NCBI GenBank assembly: GCA_004525355.1
Contig: SPCK01000016.1
Coordinates: forward strand, 1 to 14,307
DNA from: Spirochaetales bacterium
GTDB lineage: Bacteria; Spirochaetota; Spirochaetia; Treponematales; UBA12059
Direction of reading: 5' to 3'
Length of the DNA stretch: 14,307 nt
The notes under the pieces are model-generated. The model did no database searches. It had not been told where the DNA came from and saw only the letters and a program-made list of their open reading frames with translations. The translations under genes were made by a program, and so were the position numbers. The first letter of the stretch is position 1. Each line of letters opens with the position of its first letter. This document shows positions 2,415 to 9,981 of the stretch, in pieces.

Positions 2415-2539
2415 CGCTATAACGATGCAACCCATGCGATTTGGGAGCATGGCGAAGGATATTGGAAGAGTAAGCGACTATTGCAGCATCGTAATCAATA
2501 TACTGTTGAAAATGCTGAAAGACGGGAACATCCCTCGAC

Positions 2540-2569
2540 TTGCCGTGTTTCCGTTCTTCGTGCTAAAAT
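2540..2569 (+). promoter_or_regulatory. Extended -10 promoter for the loaP operon
   Basis: TTGCCG (2540-2545) is followed after 18 bases by TAAAAT (2564-2569), which is preceded by TGC to give an extended -10. Transcription would start near 2576, giving a leader of roughly 47 bases before the ATG at 2623. The position agrees with the start codon chosen from homology. Confidence 0.55.
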
Positions 2570-2603
2570 TCAGGCACTCAAAGACGAGCCGATCAGCCCA
2601 CGC

Positions 2604-2629
2604 AGGAAGGATTCCGGTATATATGGAAT
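2604..2629 (+). promoter_or_regulatory. loaP ribosome binding site with possible alternative pairing
   Basis: The Shine-Dalgarno GGAAGGA (2605-2611) lies 11 bases before ATG 2623. The ATTCC at 2611-2615 can pair with GGAA inside the Shine-Dalgarno (2605-2608) or with GGAAT just after the start (2625-2629), but not both. The stems are only 4-5 base pairs, so regulatory meaning is speculative. Confidence 0.35.
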
Positions 2630-3171
2630 ATTTCGCCGTCCAGGTGTGGACCGGCCATGAAGATGATTTCTCCAGGAATCTGCTTGCCGTCAGCCATTTT
2701 GGCCTTGACGTTTACGTTCCCAAACGGGTTCTTGTCATTCGGAAACGAGGCAAGATACGCCGCGAGGAACGGCCGCTGTTCAGCGGCTACATATTTATCG
2801 GAGCCGACACCGATCGTCTCGACCTGGAAAAGCGATGGACAATCAAGACCACCAAATATTTCATCAGGATACTCCCGGACAACGCCGATGCCAGGCCGAT
2901 AGGCCAGAGGGATCGGCACATCTTGGCCCATTTTATGTCATTCGGAAAAGCTGCCGATACATCGAAGGTGCTCTTCGACGAGAATGATCGCATCAGCGTG
3001 CTCGAAGGGCCACTCAAGGGCCTGGAAGGAATGATCGTCAAGGTGGACAGGCGCAAACAGCGCGCCAAGGTGCGCCTGGACATGTGCCAGGACGCTTTCC
3101 TGGTCGATCTGGCCTTCGAGGTCATCGAACGACCGGCGAAAGGATCCGATAATACAGATGAGCCCTCCTGA
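2623..3171 (+). CDS. loaP: LoaP-type transcription antiterminator (NusG paralogue)
   Basis: The 182-residue protein has an N-terminal NGN domain (MEYFAVQVWTGHEDDF, then VPKRVLVIRKRGK and PLFSGYIFI) that in this family binds RNA polymerase. A C-terminal KOW domain (ISVLEGPLKGLEGMIVKVD) follows. The segment DRRKQRAKVRLD closely matches the basic stretch I recall from LoaP, the NusG branch that drives readthrough of long polysaccharide and antibiotic operons in Firmicutes, Actinobacteria and Spirochaetes. It lacks the acidic insert seen in some housekeeping NusG proteins. The start at 2623 fits the NGN alignment, the Shine-Dalgarno and the promoter at 2540-2569; the frame is open back to 2425 but without homology. 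Its stop overlaps the next ATG by 14 bases. As first gene of a seven-gene overlapping operon it probably acts in cis on that operon. Family is well supported; the target is inferred. Confidence 0.87.
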   Translation: MEYFAVQVWTGHEDDFSRNLLAVSHFGLDVYVPKRVLVIRKRGKIRREERPLFSGYIFIGADTDRLDLEKRWTIKTTKYFIRILPDNADARPIGQRDRHILAHFMSFGKAADTSKVLFDENDRISVLEGPLKGLEGMIVKVDRRKQRAKVRLDMCQDAFLVDLAFEVIERPAKGSDNTDEPS

Positions 3172-4642
3172 AGTATCCCGTATCTACATTATCGGCGCCG
3201 GTTTTGCCGGCAGATCCATCGCCTCGGAAATCAGGGCAAAGGGCATATTCGGCACGGTCGTCGCCTTCCTCGATGACGACGAGTCCAAGATGGGCCGACG
3301 ACTCGACGGCGTACCCGTGCTCGGCCCTATACGGGACGTGGTTACCCTGCTTGGCCGGACACCTGCCGATGACGCCATCATCGCCCTCCCCACCGCCTCG
3401 CGCGAACGTTTGCGCGAGCTGTACTTCCTGCTCAAGAATGCTGGTTTTACCAGGATTCGCATCCTTCCCGACATTGCGCAAATCGTCGAGGGGGACGCGC
3501 ACCTGATACAAGCCCGGGAGATCGATCCGCAGGACCTCCTGGGCCGCTCTCCAATCGCTGTCGGCCTCAAGGAGAGCATTGCCTGGTTGAAGGGGAAGCG
3601 TGTCATCATTACGGGCGCGGGCGGCTCGATAGGGTCGGAACTATCGCGGCAGCTCTTGTCCGCCGGCGTGGAACGTCTGTACCTGTTCGGGCACGGCGAA
3701 AACTCGATCTACCAGATCGAGCGCGAACTGCGCGCCCTTCAGGCAGGAGGCGTCGGCGTCTCCACGGCACTCGTCCCGGTCATCGGAGAACTCAAGGATG
3801 CGGACTATCTGACGTTCATATTGGGTCGGCTGCGCGCGGACGTGATATTCCACACCGCAGCATACAAGCACGTTCCCATGATGGAGGCCAATACGGTGGC
3901 CGCGATCGAGAACAACGTATTAGGCACCCTGAACCTGGCCGACGCCGCCCTTGCCTCCGGCGTCCGGCGTTTTGTCCTGGTCAGTACGGACAAGGCAGTC
4001 GATCCGCTCTGCATCTACGGCGCATCCAAGTTCCTCGCGGAGCGTATCGTCCTTGACGCCCAGGACCGGGCCGGATCCAGCCAGGCTTTTATGACGGTTC
4101 GTTTCGGAAACGTGCTCGGTTCACGCGGCTCCATCCTGCCGCTCTTCATGCGCCAGGTCGCCCAGGGCGGGCCCGTGACCGTCACCGATCCGGATGCCAG
4201 CCGATTTTTCATGACCATACCCGAGGCTTGCTCGCTGGTTCTCAAGACGGGCGGCGTCGGAGACGGAGGCCACTCCTATCTCCTGGATATGGGTGAACCA
4301 ATACGTATCCGCGACCTCGCCGAACAGGTCATACGATTCTCCGGCTATGAACCAGAAAAGGACATCCGCATTGAATACATCGGCCTGCGACCGGGTGAAC
4401 GCCAGAGCGAACGGCTGAGGTCCGAATACGAAGACCTGGTACCCACGGCGTACGCAAAGATCAACCGCCTTGAGCGCAAGGGGCCGGCCTTCGATCTCGC
4501 GGCGATCATCGCCGATCTTGAACCGGTGTGGCACAGGGATACGGCGCGACCTGAGATGTACCGTAACCGGAGAACCCTCAGGGCGATCCTGAGACGATTC
4601 ATTCCAAGCCTCGAGGAGCGTCCCGATGAACCCGAATACTGA
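3158..4642 (+). CDS. Soluble NDP-sugar 4,6-dehydratase/epimerase, CapD/FlaA1 family
   Basis: This 494-residue protein has two Rossmann units. The first starts at once (IIGAGFAG, residues 11-18). The second has the NAD(P) motif TGAGGSIGSE (152-161) and the catalytic block VSTDKAV with Y287-G-A-S-K291. The family removes C6 water from a UDP-HexNAc after C4 oxidation, or epimerises it, giving the 4-keto-6-deoxy sugar that an aminotransferase uses. WbpM/PglF-type homologues are about 600-660 residues with four N-terminal membrane helices; here these are absent, and overlap with loaP leaves no room upstream, so the enzyme should be cytosolic. Long-form enzymes usually have Met where this has Tyr287, as in the short PseB/FlaA1 form. 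The stop overlaps the aminotransferase start by 17 bases. It resembles what is annotated cap5D in T. pallidum. The exact sugar is unknown. Confidence 0.85.
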   Translation: MSPPEVSRIYIIGAGFAGRSIASEIRAKGIFGTVVAFLDDDESKMGRRLDGVPVLGPIRDVVTLLGRTPADDAIIALPTASRERLRELYFLLKNAGFTRIRILPDIAQIVEGDAHLIQAREIDPQDLLGRSPIAVGLKESIAWLKGKRVIITGAGGSIGSELSRQLLSAGVERLYLFGHGENSIYQIERELRALQAGGVGVSTALVPVIGELKDADYLTFILGRLRADVIFHTAAYKHVPMMEANTVAAIENNVLGTLNLADAALASGVRRFVLVSTDKAVDPLCIYGASKFLAERIVLDAQDRAGSSQAFMTVRFGNVLGSRGSILPLFMRQVAQGGPVTVTDPDASRFFMTIPEACSLVLKTGGVGDGGHSYLLDMGEPIRIRDLAEQVIRFSGYEPEKDIRIEYIGLRPGERQSERLRSEYEDLVPTAYAKINRLERKGPAFDLAAIIADLEPVWHRDTARPEMYRNRRTLRAILRRFIPSLEERPDEPEY

Positions 4643-5795
4643 TTTCATACCCTTCGCCAAGCCGGTACTCGGCGTGGAAGAGGAAGAGGCCGTCCTCCGG
4701 ATCATGCGTTCCGGTTGGCTGACCACGGGTTCCGAGACGCTTGCCTTCGAGAAGGAATTCGCGGATTTCGTCGACTCTCCCCGTGCCCTGGCCGTCAATT
4801 CGGCCACCAGCGGCCTGCATCTGGCACTGGAAGCCCTTGGCATCGGCAAGGGCGACACGGTGATAACGAGCCCCTACACCTTTACCAGCAGCGCCGCCGT
4901 AGTGCGGCATCTGGGCGCCGAGGTGAAATTCTGCGATACCACATTCGACTCCTACAACATCGACCCGATCGAACTTGAGCGTGTTCTGGCCTCCACGAAA
5001 AATTGCCGCGCCATTGTGGTCGTACACGTCGGGGGCCTTCCGTGCGACATGGAAGCCATCCTGCCCCTGGCCAGACGTTACGGTTGCGCAGTCGTAGAGG
5101 ACGCAGCCCACGCGTTTCCCTCCAGGATCCAGGCTGGTTACGCGGGAACCCTGGGAGACGTGGGCGTCTACTCGTTCTACGCCACCAAGACGATCACCAC
5201 TGGCGAAGGCGGCATGATTGTCAGTGCCAACGAGAAACTGGCCACCCGAATGGCCACCATGCGCACGCATGGCATCGACCGCGAGGTCTGGGACCGATAT
5301 ACATCGAGCACGCCCTCGTGGGCCTATCAGGTGATGGAGGCCGGCTTCAAGTACAACCTTCCGGACATCCTGTCTGCGATCGGACGGGTCCAGTTGCGCA
5401 AGGCCAACGGCTTTCTGAACGAGCGGCGATCCATAGCGACGAGCTATGACAAGGCTTTCTCCGGCTCTCCGGGGTTGACGATTCCACCGCGGGGGGAAGG
5501 TCACGCCTGGCACCTGTATTCCCTGCGGGTAGACCCTGAAAAAGCCGGCATGAACAGGGACACATTGATCGAAGCGCTGGCGTCCAAAGGCGTAGGCGCA
5601 TCGGTCCATTTCATTCCACTGCACATCATGCCCTATTATGCTGAGCGCTATGGCCTGACGCCGGATTCCTTTCCCCATGCCCTGTCCCTCTACAACGATA
5701 CGTTGAGCCTTCCCATCTGGCAAGGCATGGGCGCCGACAGGGCGACGCGCGTGGCCGCGGCCGTACTGAGCGCGCTCGATACCGGGCGGCGATGA
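4626..5795 (+). CDS. PLP-dependent sugar aminotransferase, DegT/DnrJ/EryC1 family
   Basis: The 389-residue protein is the family's normal length. It begins with the typical IPFAKP and SGWLTTGSETLAFE segments. Asp159 in VVEDAAHAF should hold the PLP ring nitrogen and Lys188 in YSFYATKTITTGEGG should form the internal aldimine. The family transfers an amino group from glutamate to the C4 (or C3) keto carbon of a nucleotide-linked keto sugar in the cytoplasm. Directly after a 4,6-dehydratase, the likely product is a UDP-4-amino-4,6-dideoxy sugar, a precursor of bacillosamine-type glycans. A GAGGAG Shine-Dalgarno lies 7 bases before the ATG, inside the upstream gene, and the stop codon overlaps the next start as ATGA. 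It resembles spsC of T. pallidum. No acetyltransferase or glycosyltransferase follows in the window, so the later steps must be encoded elsewhere. Confidence 0.9.
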   Translation: MNPNTDFIPFAKPVLGVEEEEAVLRIMRSGWLTTGSETLAFEKEFADFVDSPRALAVNSATSGLHLALEALGIGKGDTVITSPYTFTSSAAVVRHLGAEVKFCDTTFDSYNIDPIELERVLASTKNCRAIVVVHVGGLPCDMEAILPLARRYGCAVVEDAAHAFPSRIQAGYAGTLGDVGVYSFYATKTITTGEGGMIVSANEKLATRMATMRTHGIDREVWDRYTSSTPSWAYQVMEAGFKYNLPDILSAIGRVQLRKANGFLNERRSIATSYDKAFSGSPGLTIPPRGEGHAWHLYSLRVDPEKAGMNRDTLIEALASKGVGASVHFIPLHIMPYYAERYGLTPDSFPHALSLYNDTLSLPIWQGMGADRATRVAAAVLSALDTGRR

Positions 5796-7858
5796 AAACC
5801 GACAGGAAGAATGGCGCCAGGGAATACGTCAGGCTTTCGGATTATCGACGGTCGGACATGGTTTACGTCGGTACGGTACGTTCACCCGCCCACAGGGGCG
5901 CCATACGGTCGATAAGCTCGCCCCACCTGCCGCGGGATTACCGCTTCATCACCACCGAGGACATACCGGGCGCCCGTTCATTGGCGTTCTCCGGCGACAG
6001 CGTACCCATTTTGGCTTTCGGAAAGGTCTCCTATCTCGGAGAGCCCATCGGGCTTATAGCGGGACCCGACCGCAAACGGGTTCAGGAAGCCATCCGCCTC
6101 ACGCGGGTCGTCATCGAGGAGGAACCGGCATCGTTCTCGTTCGAGCACTTCGATTCCTCCCGCCTGCTTTCACGTTCCCGCATGACCCGAGGCGACGTCG
6201 ACGCCGGTATGGCTTCTGCCGCATCGATCGTCCGAGGAGAGTTCCGCCTTGGCGCGGTGGACCATTATTATCCTGAACCCCAAGGCGCGGCGGCTTTCTA
6301 CGATTACGACAAGCTCGTCATCGTAGCGTCAACGCAATGGCCCTTCCAGCTTCGCAATGCTACGGCGAATATGCTGGCGGTCAAGCCTGAAGAGGTTGTC
6401 GTCAGGCCCACCTATCTGGGTCCGCATCTTGACGGCAAGCTGTGGTATCCGTCCATCCTTGCCTGCCATGCCGCCCTGGCAGCCCGCTTGCTGGGCCGCC
6501 CCGCCCTGCTTCTGCTAACTCGGGAAGAGGACTTTCTCTATACAACCAAGCGTGCGCCATTCCTTGCCGCCTATCGTGCGGGAATCGACGAGGAGGGCCG
6601 CCTTCTGGCTCTGGACGCCCGGTTTTCCATCAACCTGGGCGCCCATGGCCCTTTGGCCGATATAATGACTGCAAAACTATGCGAAACCGCGCCTGGCGGC
6701 TATTCCTGCCCGGCCGTCAGGGCGGAGGCATGGGCCGTTCGCAGCGACTTGCCGCCCATGGGCGCCTACGCGGGACTCGGCGGAGCTTCAGTCAATTTCG
6801 CGCTCGAGCGCATGGCGGATGAATGCGCCGCCGCCGTAGGACAGGATCCCCTGGCTTGGCGAATCGTCAATGCAGCCTCCCGCGGCGATGATACGACCGG
6901 TTCCCCGTTGAAAAAGTCTGTACGTTTTCAATCGGTCGCCGACACGCTCCTGCCTGTCAGCGACTATCTGCGAAAGCGCTCGGCGTACGAATTGCTGCGC
7001 AAACGGAGGCTTGACCCGGAGGCTCCGCCCGGATTCGGAATCGGCATAGCCTTTGCGTGGCAATCCAGCGAAGACGTGAGGGCATTGGCGCCCGACGCGA
7101 CTGTCTCTGTAGAAGCCGAACTGCGCAAGGATTTGGGATTGTTGATCCGTACCAGCGTCATTCCGATGGACGAACGCGCAATCGATCTGTGGAAACGGGA
7201 AGCGGCCGAAGCCATCGGTATCGAACCGGAAGATGTCCATGTCGAAACCGTTGCCACCGATCTGGTTCCCGATTCCGGCCCATCGGCCTTCTCCAGCGGC
7301 TTGGGCCTCATCAGCGGTCTGATCCTCCAAGCCTGCTCGGGCATTCAGGCCAGACGATTCCGGGAGGCGCTACCAATCACGGTGAGAAAGACGATGCGCA
7401 AAAAGGCGCGTAAGGCGTCGATATTGGATGGCGCCTCGTGGGGAGGGGCCGTGGTAGAGCTTTCCATCGATTCCATGGATGGCGCTCCGATAATCCGCGG
7501 TATCTGGCTCGTTGCCTGTGCCGGAAGGATCGTTTCCATGGAAAAGGCGCGACAGTCCCTGCAGCGGGACGCGGCGCGGGCGATCTCCAATTGTGTCAGC
7601 GAATATTTCGCCCCAGATGCCGCTCCAGGTACGGCATCAGCCCTGTTCTCATACGCGCCGCTGCGCCTCAAGGACAACCCGCCCATCGTCGTCGCCTTTA
7701 CCGATTCTGGAACGGGTGGCGACCCGGGCGGTATCGGCGAATTGGCTTTTTCAGCCATTCCCGCCGCTTTTGCCAACGCGCTCAGCCAGGCATGGGACCG
7801 CTCGATCAACAAGCTCCCGTCCGGGACGGGCGTCATGCGCGGAGGATCCGGAACATGA
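5792..7858 (+). CDS. Xanthine dehydrogenase-family large subunit with divergent molybdopterin site
   Basis: The 688-residue protein follows the XDH/CO-dehydrogenase large-subunit plan: a/b-hammerhead (RSPAHRGAIRSIS to VSYLGEPIGLIAG, about 28-90), then the molybdopterin domains (DHYYPEPQGAA with E162; STQWPFQLRN; LLLTREEDFLYTTKRAP) and a C-terminal GIGE with Glu650 at the catalytic-base position. Several cofactor motifs are changed. The GGFGGK loop reads GPHLDGK (210-216). The A-F-R-G-F-G segment with substrate-contacting Arg reads AYAGLGG with Ala327. The M-G-Q-G dithiolene loop reads PMDE (458-461). The usual Ser-Arg-Ser/Thr stretch reads AFSSGLG. It is shorter than most homologues (750 or more). 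The gene overlaps both neighbours by ATGA junctions and heads a trio with the FeS and FAD subunits. Homology is clear; whether it binds Moco, another cofactor or none is open. Substrate is unknown. Confidence 0.82.
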   Translation: MKTDRKNGAREYVRLSDYRRSDMVYVGTVRSPAHRGAIRSISSPHLPRDYRFITTEDIPGARSLAFSGDSVPILAFGKVSYLGEPIGLIAGPDRKRVQEAIRLTRVVIEEEPASFSFEHFDSSRLLSRSRMTRGDVDAGMASAASIVRGEFRLGAVDHYYPEPQGAAAFYDYDKLVIVASTQWPFQLRNATANMLAVKPEEVVVRPTYLGPHLDGKLWYPSILACHAALAARLLGRPALLLLTREEDFLYTTKRAPFLAAYRAGIDEEGRLLALDARFSINLGAHGPLADIMTAKLCETAPGGYSCPAVRAEAWAVRSDLPPMGAYAGLGGASVNFALERMADECAAAVGQDPLAWRIVNAASRGDDTTGSPLKKSVRFQSVADTLLPVSDYLRKRSAYELLRKRRLDPEAPPGFGIGIAFAWQSSEDVRALAPDATVSVEAELRKDLGLLIRTSVIPMDERAIDLWKREAAEAIGIEPEDVHVETVATDLVPDSGPSAFSSGLGLISGLILQACSGIQARRFREALPITVRKTMRKKARKASILDGASWGGAVVELSIDSMDGAPIIRGIWLVACAGRIVSMEKARQSLQRDAARAISNCVSEYFAPDAAPGTASALFSYAPLRLKDNPPIVVAFTDSGTGGDPGGIGELAFSAIPAAFANALSQAWDRSINKLPSGTGVMRGGSGT

Positions 7859-8340
7859 CGGTGAATTTCATATTGAACGGCGAAGACGTTTCCCTGAGCG
7901 CCGACCCGATGGATAGGTTGTCCGACGTGCTCAGGGAGCAGTTCGGGCTCAGAAGTGTCGCCAGCGACTGCAGGGTCGGACAATGCGGCAAGTGCCTGGT
8001 ATTCATGGATGGAAAACTGGTCAATTCCTGCCTGGTGCCCGCATTCCGCGTCCGAGGCGTCGAGATAGTCACCTACGAAGGTTTTTCGAGCACTGAAGAC
8101 CACGCCGCGGTGCATGAAGCCTTCGAACGTCGCGGCCTGGACTTGTGCGCCTTCTGCGAACCGGCTGTACACATGACTGTCGGCTCTCTACTGGAGACGG
8201 GACATCGGCCGGAATCCGATCACATCGCCGAAGTACTTTCTTCTGTGTACTGCACCTGCACGGACCCCATATCCATCCTCGAGGCGGCCAACGACGCCCT
8301 CGATGCCAAGGAAGGCAAGAAACATGCCCGTTCGCGTTGA
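7855..8340 (+). CDS. [2Fe-2S] subunit of the molybdo-hydroxylase-like complex
   Basis: The 161-residue protein is the small electron-transfer subunit of the XDH/CoxS family. The N-terminal plant-type ferredoxin domain carries C39, C44, C47 and C59 (DCRVGQCGKCLVFMDGKLV, then NSC). The C-terminal helical domain carries C98 and C101 (LCAFCEP) and C133 and C135 (YCTCTD). All eight cluster ligands are present. Residues around the second cluster that normally face the molybdopterin differ: the usual Q-C-G-F-C reads L-C-A-F-C, and C-R-C-T-G reads C-T-C-T-D. That matches the altered cofactor site of the large subunit. The frame is open upstream to 7438, but the ATG at 7855 fits the family, has a GGAGG Shine-Dalgarno 9 bases ahead, and overlaps the large-subunit stop as ATGA. 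The complex is expected to be cytosolic. Confidence 0.88.
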   Translation: MTVNFILNGEDVSLSADPMDRLSDVLREQFGLRSVASDCRVGQCGKCLVFMDGKLVNSCLVPAFRVRGVEIVTYEGFSSTEDHAAVHEAFERRGLDLCAFCEPAVHMTVGSLLETGHRPESDHIAEVLSSVYCTCTDPISILEAANDALDAKEGKKHARSR

Positions 8341-9172
8341 CGAGGTATCCAATCCGGCCACGTTACAGGAAGCGCTGCTTTTCCTGAAGCGTTATCCGGA
8401 AGCGGTACCGTGGGCGGGAGGAACCCTGCTCATGACCGATTCCGCCGCCTGGCCTGAAGGCCGGGGTACCGCTATCCTGGACGTGCATCGCATACCCGAG
8501 TTGAGTTCGATACATCGAACCGAACGTTACATCGAGGTAGGTGCCGCGTACAGCCTCTCGTCCATACTCGCCCTGCCCGGGAGTTCGATACTCGATCCGC
8601 TCACTCAGGCCATCGGAACTATCGGCAACGCCGCGGTCAGAAACCTTGCCACCCTTGGCGGCAATATTGCCGCGAGAGGCCGTTTCATGACCAGCTTTCC
8701 AGCGTTATCCTGTTTGGATGCCTCCGTGGAATTGAGGGATTCCGCCGGCGTGCGATGGCACGGTATCCATAAGCTGGTCGGACCGGGAAACCAGCCGAGC
8801 TTCCCCCGGGGCACCCTCCTGACCCGCGTAAGGCTGCCCGTAGCCAAGTGGGATTCCATTGCCATCAAATCGATCGGGGAGAAGTCTTTCCCTCATCCTG
8901 ATGCCAACGCCTTTTGCGCCTGCGCGCGCTACGACAAGGGGGCAATATCGGACATTCGCATTGCCACAGCCGGTCGCGTCCTCGTACGGGACCGTGAGCT
9001 TGAGCTGACCCTGGCAGGCAAGCACCTACCGCTGACCAGGAGAGAGCTTGTGACCTTTGCCACCGAGCTGGCAGCTCTGGCATACGCTCTGTCCGCGTCC
9101 CGGAACCTTGCCGATCGCCTTGAAGCATACGTTACCGCCTTCCTCGCTCGCTCCCCGGAGTACATATCATGA
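8324..9172 (+). CDS. FAD-binding subunit of the molybdo-hydroxylase-like complex
   Basis: The 282-residue protein matches the CoxM/XdhB flavoprotein family. It has the first FAD motif WAGGTLLMTD (residues 30-39) and the second motif VRNLATLGGNIA (105-116), followed by FPALSCLDASVELRD as in homologues. A C-terminal CO-dehydrogenase flavoprotein domain (ARYDKGAISDIRIATAGR) ends the protein. FAD would take electrons from the 2Fe-2S clusters and pass them to NAD or another acceptor. The ATG at 8324 is preferred over an in-frame ATG at 8303 because AAGGAAGG (8308-8315) sits 8 bases ahead of it. It overlaps the FeS gene by 17 bases and the next gene by an ATGA junction. The order large-FeS-FAD is less usual than FAD-FeS-large or large-FAD-FeS. 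The final acceptor cannot be told from sequence. Confidence 0.86.
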   Translation: MPVRVDEVSNPATLQEALLFLKRYPEAVPWAGGTLLMTDSAAWPEGRGTAILDVHRIPELSSIHRTERYIEVGAAYSLSSILALPGSSILDPLTQAIGTIGNAAVRNLATLGGNIAARGRFMTSFPALSCLDASVELRDSAGVRWHGIHKLVGPGNQPSFPRGTLLTRVRLPVAKWDSIAIKSIGEKSFPHPDANAFCACARYDKGAISDIRIATAGRVLVRDRELELTLAGKHLPLTRRELVTFATELAALAYALSASRNLADRLEAYVTAFLARSPEYIS

Positions 9173-9981
9173 AAGGTACACTATACTTGGTTCCCGTTCC
9201 CATCGGGGACGGGATTCCCCGTGACGAGTTGGCCCCCCGCGTACTTGAAACCGTACGCCGATTGCGTGACTTCATCGTGGAAGACAAGCGCACGGCAAGG
9301 CGCTTCCTGTCCGCGGTCATGCCGCAGGAAGCAGTGGACGAGTCGAACTACTGGATACTTGACAAGAGGATCGATCCGCGGGAGCTTGCCGCCCTCCTCG
9401 AGCCGCTCCGGGCGGGCCGCGACGCTGCCATAATGTCTGAAGCCGGCAGTCCCTGCGTGGCCGATCCTGGCACCGCCCTGGTAGCCGTTGCCACGGCCGA
9501 AGGAATTCGAGTCGTTCCCCTGCCGGGACCGAGCGCCATACTCATGGCCTTGATGGCCTCGGGATTGGGGGGACAGAAATTCTCGTTTGCGGGCTACCTT
9601 CCAACGGAGCAGTCCGGCAGGGAGCGGGCTCTCAGGTCATTGGAAGCGACATCCGCACGCGAAGGTTCCACCCAGATATTCATAGAGACGCCGTACCGCA
9701 ACGAAGTTCTGGCACGAAGCGCCATCGGCGTCCTGGCCCCCGATACCGTATTCTGTATCGCCTATGCCCTCTCAACCGCTGATGAATCGGTTATCTCCAT
9801 GCCGGTCGCTGCGTGGAAACGCTCGTTCCCGATCCTGGGCAAGGCGCCCGCCGTATTCCTTATTTCGGCGATTCCACCCGAGGAAACCAAGGGCGACCAG
9901 AAAGCTGCTTGCGCCCATAGGGGTGACGACGGACGCGGTTCGTCAAGGCGCATCAGGAACACGGGAAATAAAGCATGGTGA
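9169..9981 (+). CDS. RsmI-like SAM-dependent methyltransferase (tetrapyrrole methylase fold)
   Basis: The 270-residue protein has the tetrapyrrole-methylase SAM site: GTLYLVPVPIGDG at the N-terminus, MSEAGSPCVADPG (89-101) and PLPGPSAILMALMASGL (from 117). RsmI itself 2'-O-methylates C1402 of 16S rRNA. This protein lacks the canonical RsmI spellings (AEDTR, SDAGTP, YEST-HR). It reads VEDKRTARR, SEAGSPCVADPG and FIETPYRN, like a paralogous COG0313 branch I recall from Bacteroidetes and some proteobacteria, whose substrate is not known to me. The family's usual end is near VFLISA (about residue 236). About 35 further residues, basic and polar, look unrelated and may be an extension. The start overlaps the FAD-subunit stop as ATGA, so it is translationally tied to the oxidoreductase operon, although an rRNA methyltransferase would not need that. 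Confidence 0.8.
   Translation: MKGTLYLVPVPIGDGIPRDELAPRVLETVRRLRDFIVEDKRTARRFLSAVMPQEAVDESNYWILDKRIDPRELAALLEPLRAGRDAAIMSEAGSPCVADPGTALVAVATAEGIRVVPLPGPSAILMALMASGLGGQKFSFAGYLPTEQSGRERALRSLEATSAREGSTQIFIETPYRNEVLARSAIGVLAPDTVFCIAYALSTADESVISMPVAAWKRSFPILGKAPAVFLISAIPPEETKGDQKAACAHRGDDGRGSSRRIRNTGNKAW

Follow-up and report, generated by a model that had tools for sequence, protein, structure and literature searches.

We propose that the three adjacent genes at positions 5792 to 9172 of the window, the 14,307-nucleotide stretch analysed here, encode a heterotrimeric flavo-iron-sulfur complex whose ancestor was a xanthine dehydrogenase (XDH). A single loss of the molybdenum cofactor (Moco) would have taken place early in a spirochaete clade, and selection would have kept the complex since; we give this reading a probability of roughly 0.6. 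The absence of Moco from the complex is highly probable from its sequence, and redox activity in the window's lineage is rather likely. A new active site in the former Moco cavity is a more tentative proposal. The first-pass annotation had argued for re-purposing rather than decay, the outcome being either a site for a different cofactor or a redox enzyme free of Moco, and the case for re-purposing is supported by a loss shared throughout the family, its position on one branch of the tree, newly fixed residues, purifying selection, a kept gene order, and the 168 of 269 family-bearing genomes in which Moco genes went unmatched.

The host genome of the window comprises 2.65 Mb in 506 contigs. 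Between positions 2425 and 9981, the window carries a row of plus-strand genes that overlap or nearly so, in the order NusG-like, CapD family, DegT family, large, FeS and FAD subunits, and TP_methylase. The last is regarded as a neighbour and is not claimed as a component of the complex. Upstream of the row, a long minus-strand open frame (3-1727) runs off the window edge, and Pfam gives no match for the frame at 1756-2241. The features are as follows.

2425..3171, plus strand: NusG-like protein, first in the gene row (Pfam NusG, KOW)
3158..4642, plus strand: protein of the CapD/Polysacc_synt_2 nucleotide-sugar dehydratase family (Pfam, 9.8e-103)
4626..5795, plus strand: DegT-type sugar aminotransferase, overlapping the large-subunit gene from upstream (Pfam DegT, 7.5e-112)
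5792..7858, plus strand: large subunit, 688 aa by translation, XDH large-subunit fold with a dismantled Moco site
6335..6340, plus strand: Gln182-Trp183, the Gln retained and the Trp new; the column of Trp183 holds Cys in 8/8 intact sisters
6419..6445, plus strand: GPHLDGKLW (residues 210-218) in place of the GGxFGGK loop, by alignment
6770..6772, plus strand: Ala327 at the place of the AFRGFG Arg, a column in which all 8 intact sisters and 7/8 paralogues have Arg
7163..7174, plus strand: PMDE (458-461) at the place of the GQG loop, by alignment
7553..7570, plus strand: residues 588-593, where the GQxxGG loop is lost, from the comparison of core and intact rows
7739..7741, plus strand: Glu650, the site of the XDH catalytic Glu, present in the window and not strictly held in the family
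7855..8340, plus strand: [2Fe-2S] subunit, 161 aa, Cys 39/44/47/59 and 98/101/133/135 (Pfam Fer2, Fer2_2)
8303..9172, plus strand: FAD subunit, 289 aa, AGGT 38-41 and TLGGN 117-121 (Pfam FAD_binding_5, 6.3e-28)
9169..9981, plus strand: TP_methylase (RsmI-like), overlapping the FAD gene (Pfam TP_methylase, 1e-14)

The former Moco site of the large subunit

Translation of the large-subunit gene confirmed the substitutions reported earlier, namely GPHLDGK at 210-216, Ala at 327 and PMDE at 458-461. A fold search, which is blind to the contents of the pocket, showed that the XDH large-subunit fold is retained. We aligned the subunit with eight XDH paralogues: L070-L073, which are the four that the window genome encodes (contigs C239, C135, C220 and C116), and L099, L100, L101 and L103. 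The old motifs occupy the same columns in these paralogues: the GPHLDGK column reads GG-x-FG-x-K in all eight, the column of Ala327 holds Arg in seven (Gln in L073), and that of residue 461 holds Gln in six. Hence, the motifs were substituted, and the explanation that they had merely shifted is ruled out by this alignment.

The same loss extends to the whole family as far as it was read. GGxFGGK, the AFRGFG Arg and GQG are absent from all 65 large subunits read in the order Treponematales, the window included, which come from 65 of its 269 matching genomes; this set and the 61-row FeS set were de-duplicated by sequence, and rows that were too short were dropped. Outside the order, the Moco motifs are likewise lost in 8/8 dismantled rows read. 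A set of 80 named loci had been chosen by the replacement motif, which makes their lack of GGxFGGK trivial, but the absence of the AFRGFG Arg (0/80) and of GQG (0/80) among them is not. A comparison of 39 core rows with 20 intact rows revealed that the GQxxGG loop (588-593), unmentioned in the first-pass annotation, is additionally lost. The positions conserved in the intact rows and lost in the core include 211, 213, 214, 327, 460-462, 500 and 588-593, which we take to be the Moco-holding loops of XDH structures.

Other residues of the pocket have become fixed. Of the 73 dismantled rows, 72 carry Trp183 (39/39 core, 26/26 derived and 7/8 from outside the order), 67 carry Trp218 and 53 carry Asp214. 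Within the core, Trp183, Trp218, Gln182, Ser501 and Gln424 are each present in 39/39 rows and Asp214 in 37/39, and most core members also have His212. Gln182, presumably the counterpart of bovine Gln767, and Ser501 belong to the old site, and the earlier annotation was silent on both. In the derived treponemes, the new pocket drifts too (Asp214 in 9/26 rows, Gln424 in 13/26). The catalytic-site Glu650, reported as still there, is indeed Glu in the window, but its retention does not hold family-wide: it is Glu in only 31/39 core and 7/26 derived rows.

It is conceivable, if rather unlikely, that the cavity binds another prosthetic group (another pterin, a nucleotide, a flavin or a metal) instead of Moco. 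Such a group could be held by the newly conserved polar residues His212 and Asp214 of the core rows, and the unchanged fold makes a large buried cavity plausible. However, the large Trp side chains would tend to fill that cavity, and the gene rows examined, with Pfam on some neighbours, showed no second conserved cofactor-synthesis gene.

Spread, ancestry and Moco supply

The window's large subunit, used as a query, matched 279 of the 291 genomes of the order at E <= 1e-10, and a 20-member profile matched 269 of the 291 at E <= 1e-70 (171 of the 178 better genomes). Relatives in the named collections are spirochaetes in 79 of 80 cases, the remaining one being labelled only "bacterium"; two further relatives differ in name (a Clostridia MAG and a Magnetospirillaceae MAG). 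Several of the genome pairs for which dN/dS was computed turned out to be duplicate entries of the same genomes, and we counted the six closest distinct pairs, in which dN/dS of the large subunit is 0.059-0.131. It is low for all three subunits. The large-subunit matches in G146, G152, G164 and G273 contain one or two in-frame stops, with open frames of 704-722 aa remaining.

A phylum-wide profile search matched 86 of 247 genomes at E <= 1e-60 and revealed a sister form in which every Moco motif is present; eight of its members were read (L126, L131, L132, L133, L135, L136, L137 and L144). In a 58-row tree built after removal of the motif columns, one branch with an SH-aLRT of 100 parts 38 dismantled rows from 20 intact ones; the tree was computed in quick mode with no bootstrap, has three long rows (L128, L130 and L141), and its label "intact" refers to the GGxFGGK pattern alone. 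Among the sister form, L126 is flanked by two Xan_ur_permease genes and L132 adjoins XdhC, a PALP enzyme and an OTCase. XdhC adjoins the intact copies L101, L103, L132, L143, L144 and L145; in the sister form it was seen only near L132 and L144, the remaining six stretches, some of them short, giving no match. It is also absent from 109 stretches with the dismantled form, as judged by tblastn with one XdhC query and with at least one genome counted twice. As some of the closest intact relatives adjoin purine permeases or XdhC, the ancestor was probably a xanthine dehydrogenase of purine breakdown.

These findings leave very little room for plain decay, in which the genes would be a pseudogene or a relic on its way out. 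The in-frame stops of the four matches and the further losses in host-associated treponemes are what such a process would produce. However, the family is present in 269 of 291 genomes with open frames and low dN/dS, and the three genes stay together in 73/73 and 68/68 loci with enough flank. Chance or decay in a single genome is ruled out by the spread, the shared motif loss, the single branch and the low dN/dS.

The supply of Moco in the host genomes was assessed by searches for MoaC, MoeA and MoaA, all three of which were positive in 11 of 14 control genomes. Among the 291 genomes of the order, MoaC matched in 104, the MoaA C-terminal domain in 105 and MoeA in 83. In 168 of the 269 genomes carrying the family, none of MoaA, MoaC and MoeA matched. 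In a selection of 45 genomes, each with a completeness of 90% or more and each with a family match, the same was true of 39, and of 16/20 in the single-contig subset. The dismantled motifs were read in 35 of these 45 genomes, 30 of which are without a Moco match. Outside the order, MoaC was found in 0/9 genomes with the dismantled form (8 of them read, G337 not) versus 6/8 genomes with the sister form.

The Moco-gene search of the window genome, which had been proposed as a check, gave a mixed answer: MoaC and MoeA are present and the MoaA match is weak. Therefore, this genome alone would not show Moco independence; with its Moco genes and four XDH-family paralogues, Moco is available there. 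At G000:C445:1992-2072, a match to the MoaA C-terminal domain of about 25 residues lies below the Pfam cut-off and adjoins MoaC, and the same short match beside MoaC in other genomes of families f1 and f4 points to a divergent or shortened MoaA. Several XDHs with intact motifs also occur in spirochaete genomes without a MoaC or MoaA match: L101 (G002), L102 (G012, partial), L133 (G485), L135 (G308), L139 (G302) and L142 (G324, 78% complete). Such cases could mean that the pathway was overlooked, that the cofactor is taken up, or that these XDHs are true orphans. We did not accept missing Moco genes alone as proof of Moco independence, as these six genomes likewise lack matches. The pathway argument is statistical, and the motif argument is the stronger of the two.

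The same data bear on the improbable case that the complex is still a molybdoenzyme and binds Moco in an unusual way. It would account for the retention of Gln182, Ser501 and, usually, Glu650; the window genome encodes MoaC and MoeA, and the intact XDHs found in genomes without Moco genes make another supply conceivable. Set against this are the loss of all pterin- and phosphate-holding loops in 65/65 rows, the lack of an adjoining XdhC in the 109 stretches, and the 39 of 45 near-complete genomes in which MoaA, MoaC and MoeA are all missing.

Electron chain, gene neighbourhood and possible function

The eight FeS cysteines at 39, 44, 47, 59, 98, 101, 133 and 135 were confirmed in the translation of the window, as were both FAD motifs, AGGT at 38-41 and TLGGN at 117-121, together with the Pfam FAD_binding_5 match; FAD motif counts were taken over 60 orthologues. 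The claim of an intact FeS relay holds for the window and for the 52 of 61 FeS orthologues with all eight Cys, but 9/61 miss some ligand. Ligands of the N-terminal cluster are missing in six of the 61 and those of the C-terminal cluster in four, with L062 affected at both, while Cys98, Cys101 and Cys135 are kept in 61/61. Of the two cofactor-facing replacements described earlier, that of the Gln before CGFC is general (absent in 61/61 orthologues, present in 9/9 paralogue rows, equivalent to 7 distinct genes). The other does not extend to the family: CRC retains its Arg in 46/61 orthologues, and its loss in the window thus falls outside the family-wide change. In the 1.1-Mb single-contig treponeme-like genome G013, the FeS subunit (L075:9270-9734) has lost its N-terminal [2Fe-2S] ligands and kept the four C-terminal Cys. 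Going by the ligands, the relay is retained in most members and is eroding in some host-associated treponemes.

This erosion brings in the strongest competitor to a catalytic role, which we nevertheless consider unlikely. The large subunit could be a structural pseudo-enzyme, with the Fe-S and FAD parts serving as an electron carrier, as a redox sensor or in assembly only. The pocket residues do drift in the derived treponemes, 9/61 FeS orthologues have lost cluster ligands, G013 has no N-terminal cluster left, and the DegT and CapD neighbours are dispensable. On the other hand, the conservation of Trp183, Trp218, Gln182, Ser501 and Gln424 in 39/39 core rows and of Asp214 in 37/39 exceeds the needs of a scaffold, and dN/dS is low in all three subunits.

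The gene order large-FeS-FAD is kept in the named loci with enough flank (FeS 73/73, FAD 68/68). DegT lies upstream of the complex in 62/75 named loci and CapD in 57/67; in the best-scoring or chosen genomes of the order, DegT is directly upstream in 30/30 and 20/20 loci. Exceptions occur: both CapD and DegT are absent in L188 and L203, where the complex follows the NusG-like gene, in L141, where only NusG-like stands upstream, and in L134 and L138; CapD is present without DegT in L213 and L227. A strict tie to CapD/DegT is ruled out by such loci (10 of the 13 DegT-less loci were viewed). In 12 genomes without a large-subunit match, DegT is strong (E < 1e-100) in 3, weaker in 6 and missing in 3, so that, assemblies permitting, DegT also occurs without the complex. 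The NusG-like gene (window 2425-3171) stands upstream of the complex even in the absence of CapD/DegT (L188, L203 and L141), and its product is possibly a dedicated antiterminator for the gene row.

The neighbourhood would be compatible with a nucleotide-sugar oxidoreductase that works with CapD and DegT, or an electron donor to DegT. In 3-deoxysugar synthesis, E3 is the electron donor to E1, and an E1-type 3-dehydrase such as ColD has a His in place of the PLP Lys. The window DegT differs from E1/ColD in keeping the PLP Lys188, which is conserved in a 67-row alignment; this residue and the best PDB match, ArnB, identify it as a predicted PLP aminotransferase. An E1/E3-like role with DegT is weakened by Lys188. 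The overlapping genes of the window and the position of DegT directly upstream in 30/30 and 20/20 order loci and in 62/75 named loci fit the sugar assignment, whereas the complex without both neighbours (L188, L203, L141, L134 and L138), CapD without DegT (L213 and L227) and the retained lysine do not. We thus give it a low probability; a role in sugar-nucleotide chemistry is possible and not required.

Returning to an XDH descendant without Moco, electrons would still pass between the FAD and the two [2Fe-2S] clusters, and to or from the large subunit. The former Moco cavity, rebuilt with Trp183, Trp218 and Asp214 (and His212 in most core members), may hold an organic substrate or other ligand directly, beside the proximal cluster. 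As no Mo centre is left to take two electrons from a C-H bond, our guess is a reductase direction, in which FAD takes electrons from NAD(P)H or a different donor and passes them to the clusters and then to an acceptor. In its fullest and still speculative form, this would make the complex a catalytically active, molybdenum-free member of the xanthine oxidase fold, whose substrate swaps electrons directly with the proximal [2Fe-2S] cluster in the former Moco cavity. Such an enzyme would be shared by a large fraction of the spirochaetes and might survive, in reduced form, in the syphilis spirochaete.

Comparison with known systems

Genomes that have xanthine oxidase (XO)-family proteins but no Moco pathway are an open puzzle. 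A 2018 survey (PMC6147048) describes XO-family members from genomes in which Moco synthesis is incomplete and considers a Mo-independent form; it reports that no sequence-level feature marking such orphan molybdoproteins was found. Here, clear motif losses define a clade. Within the open-access literature, from which most subscription papers are missing, no account of what these proteins do turned up. PMC4403809 names Treponema pallidum TPASS_0079 and TPASS_0081 "xanthine dehydrogenase". The L075 genes of G013 are very probably their orthologues, and a DUF4015 glycosyl hydrolase follows the L075 complex downstream, as it does at the TPASS locus. The TPASS proteins are annotated there as a molybdoprotein, yet the L075 large subunit is without Moco motifs. 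An intact sister group is at hand for comparison, and the gene sets occur in cultured spirochaetes (Breznakiella homolactica). If confirmed, the proposal would show the re-use of a molybdoenzyme scaffold after loss of the metal, and the names "xanthine dehydrogenase" and "Mo-binding subunit" would need correcting for these proteins.

With the XDH/xanthine oxidase family, the window complex shares the large-subunit fold, the eight-Cys set for two [2Fe-2S] clusters and the FAD motifs. It differs from this family, including Rhodobacter capsulatus XDH (1jro), in being without GGxFGGK, the AFRGFG Arg, GQG and GQxxGG; compared with the R. capsulatus enzyme, it also has no adjoining XdhC, and its large subunit is shorter (688 aa). 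The intact sister form is closer. Its members score 316-512 bits against the dismantled-family profile (L133, L135 and L136 being scored through their genomes G485, G308 and G331). It has the same large-FeS-FAD order where the stretch spans all three genes, and has the KEHYP/KLWYP and DSGP-x-x-x-SR surroundings in common with the dismantled form. In contrast to the latter, it retains all Moco motifs and stands beside xanthine/uracil-type permeases (L126) or XdhC (L132 and L144).
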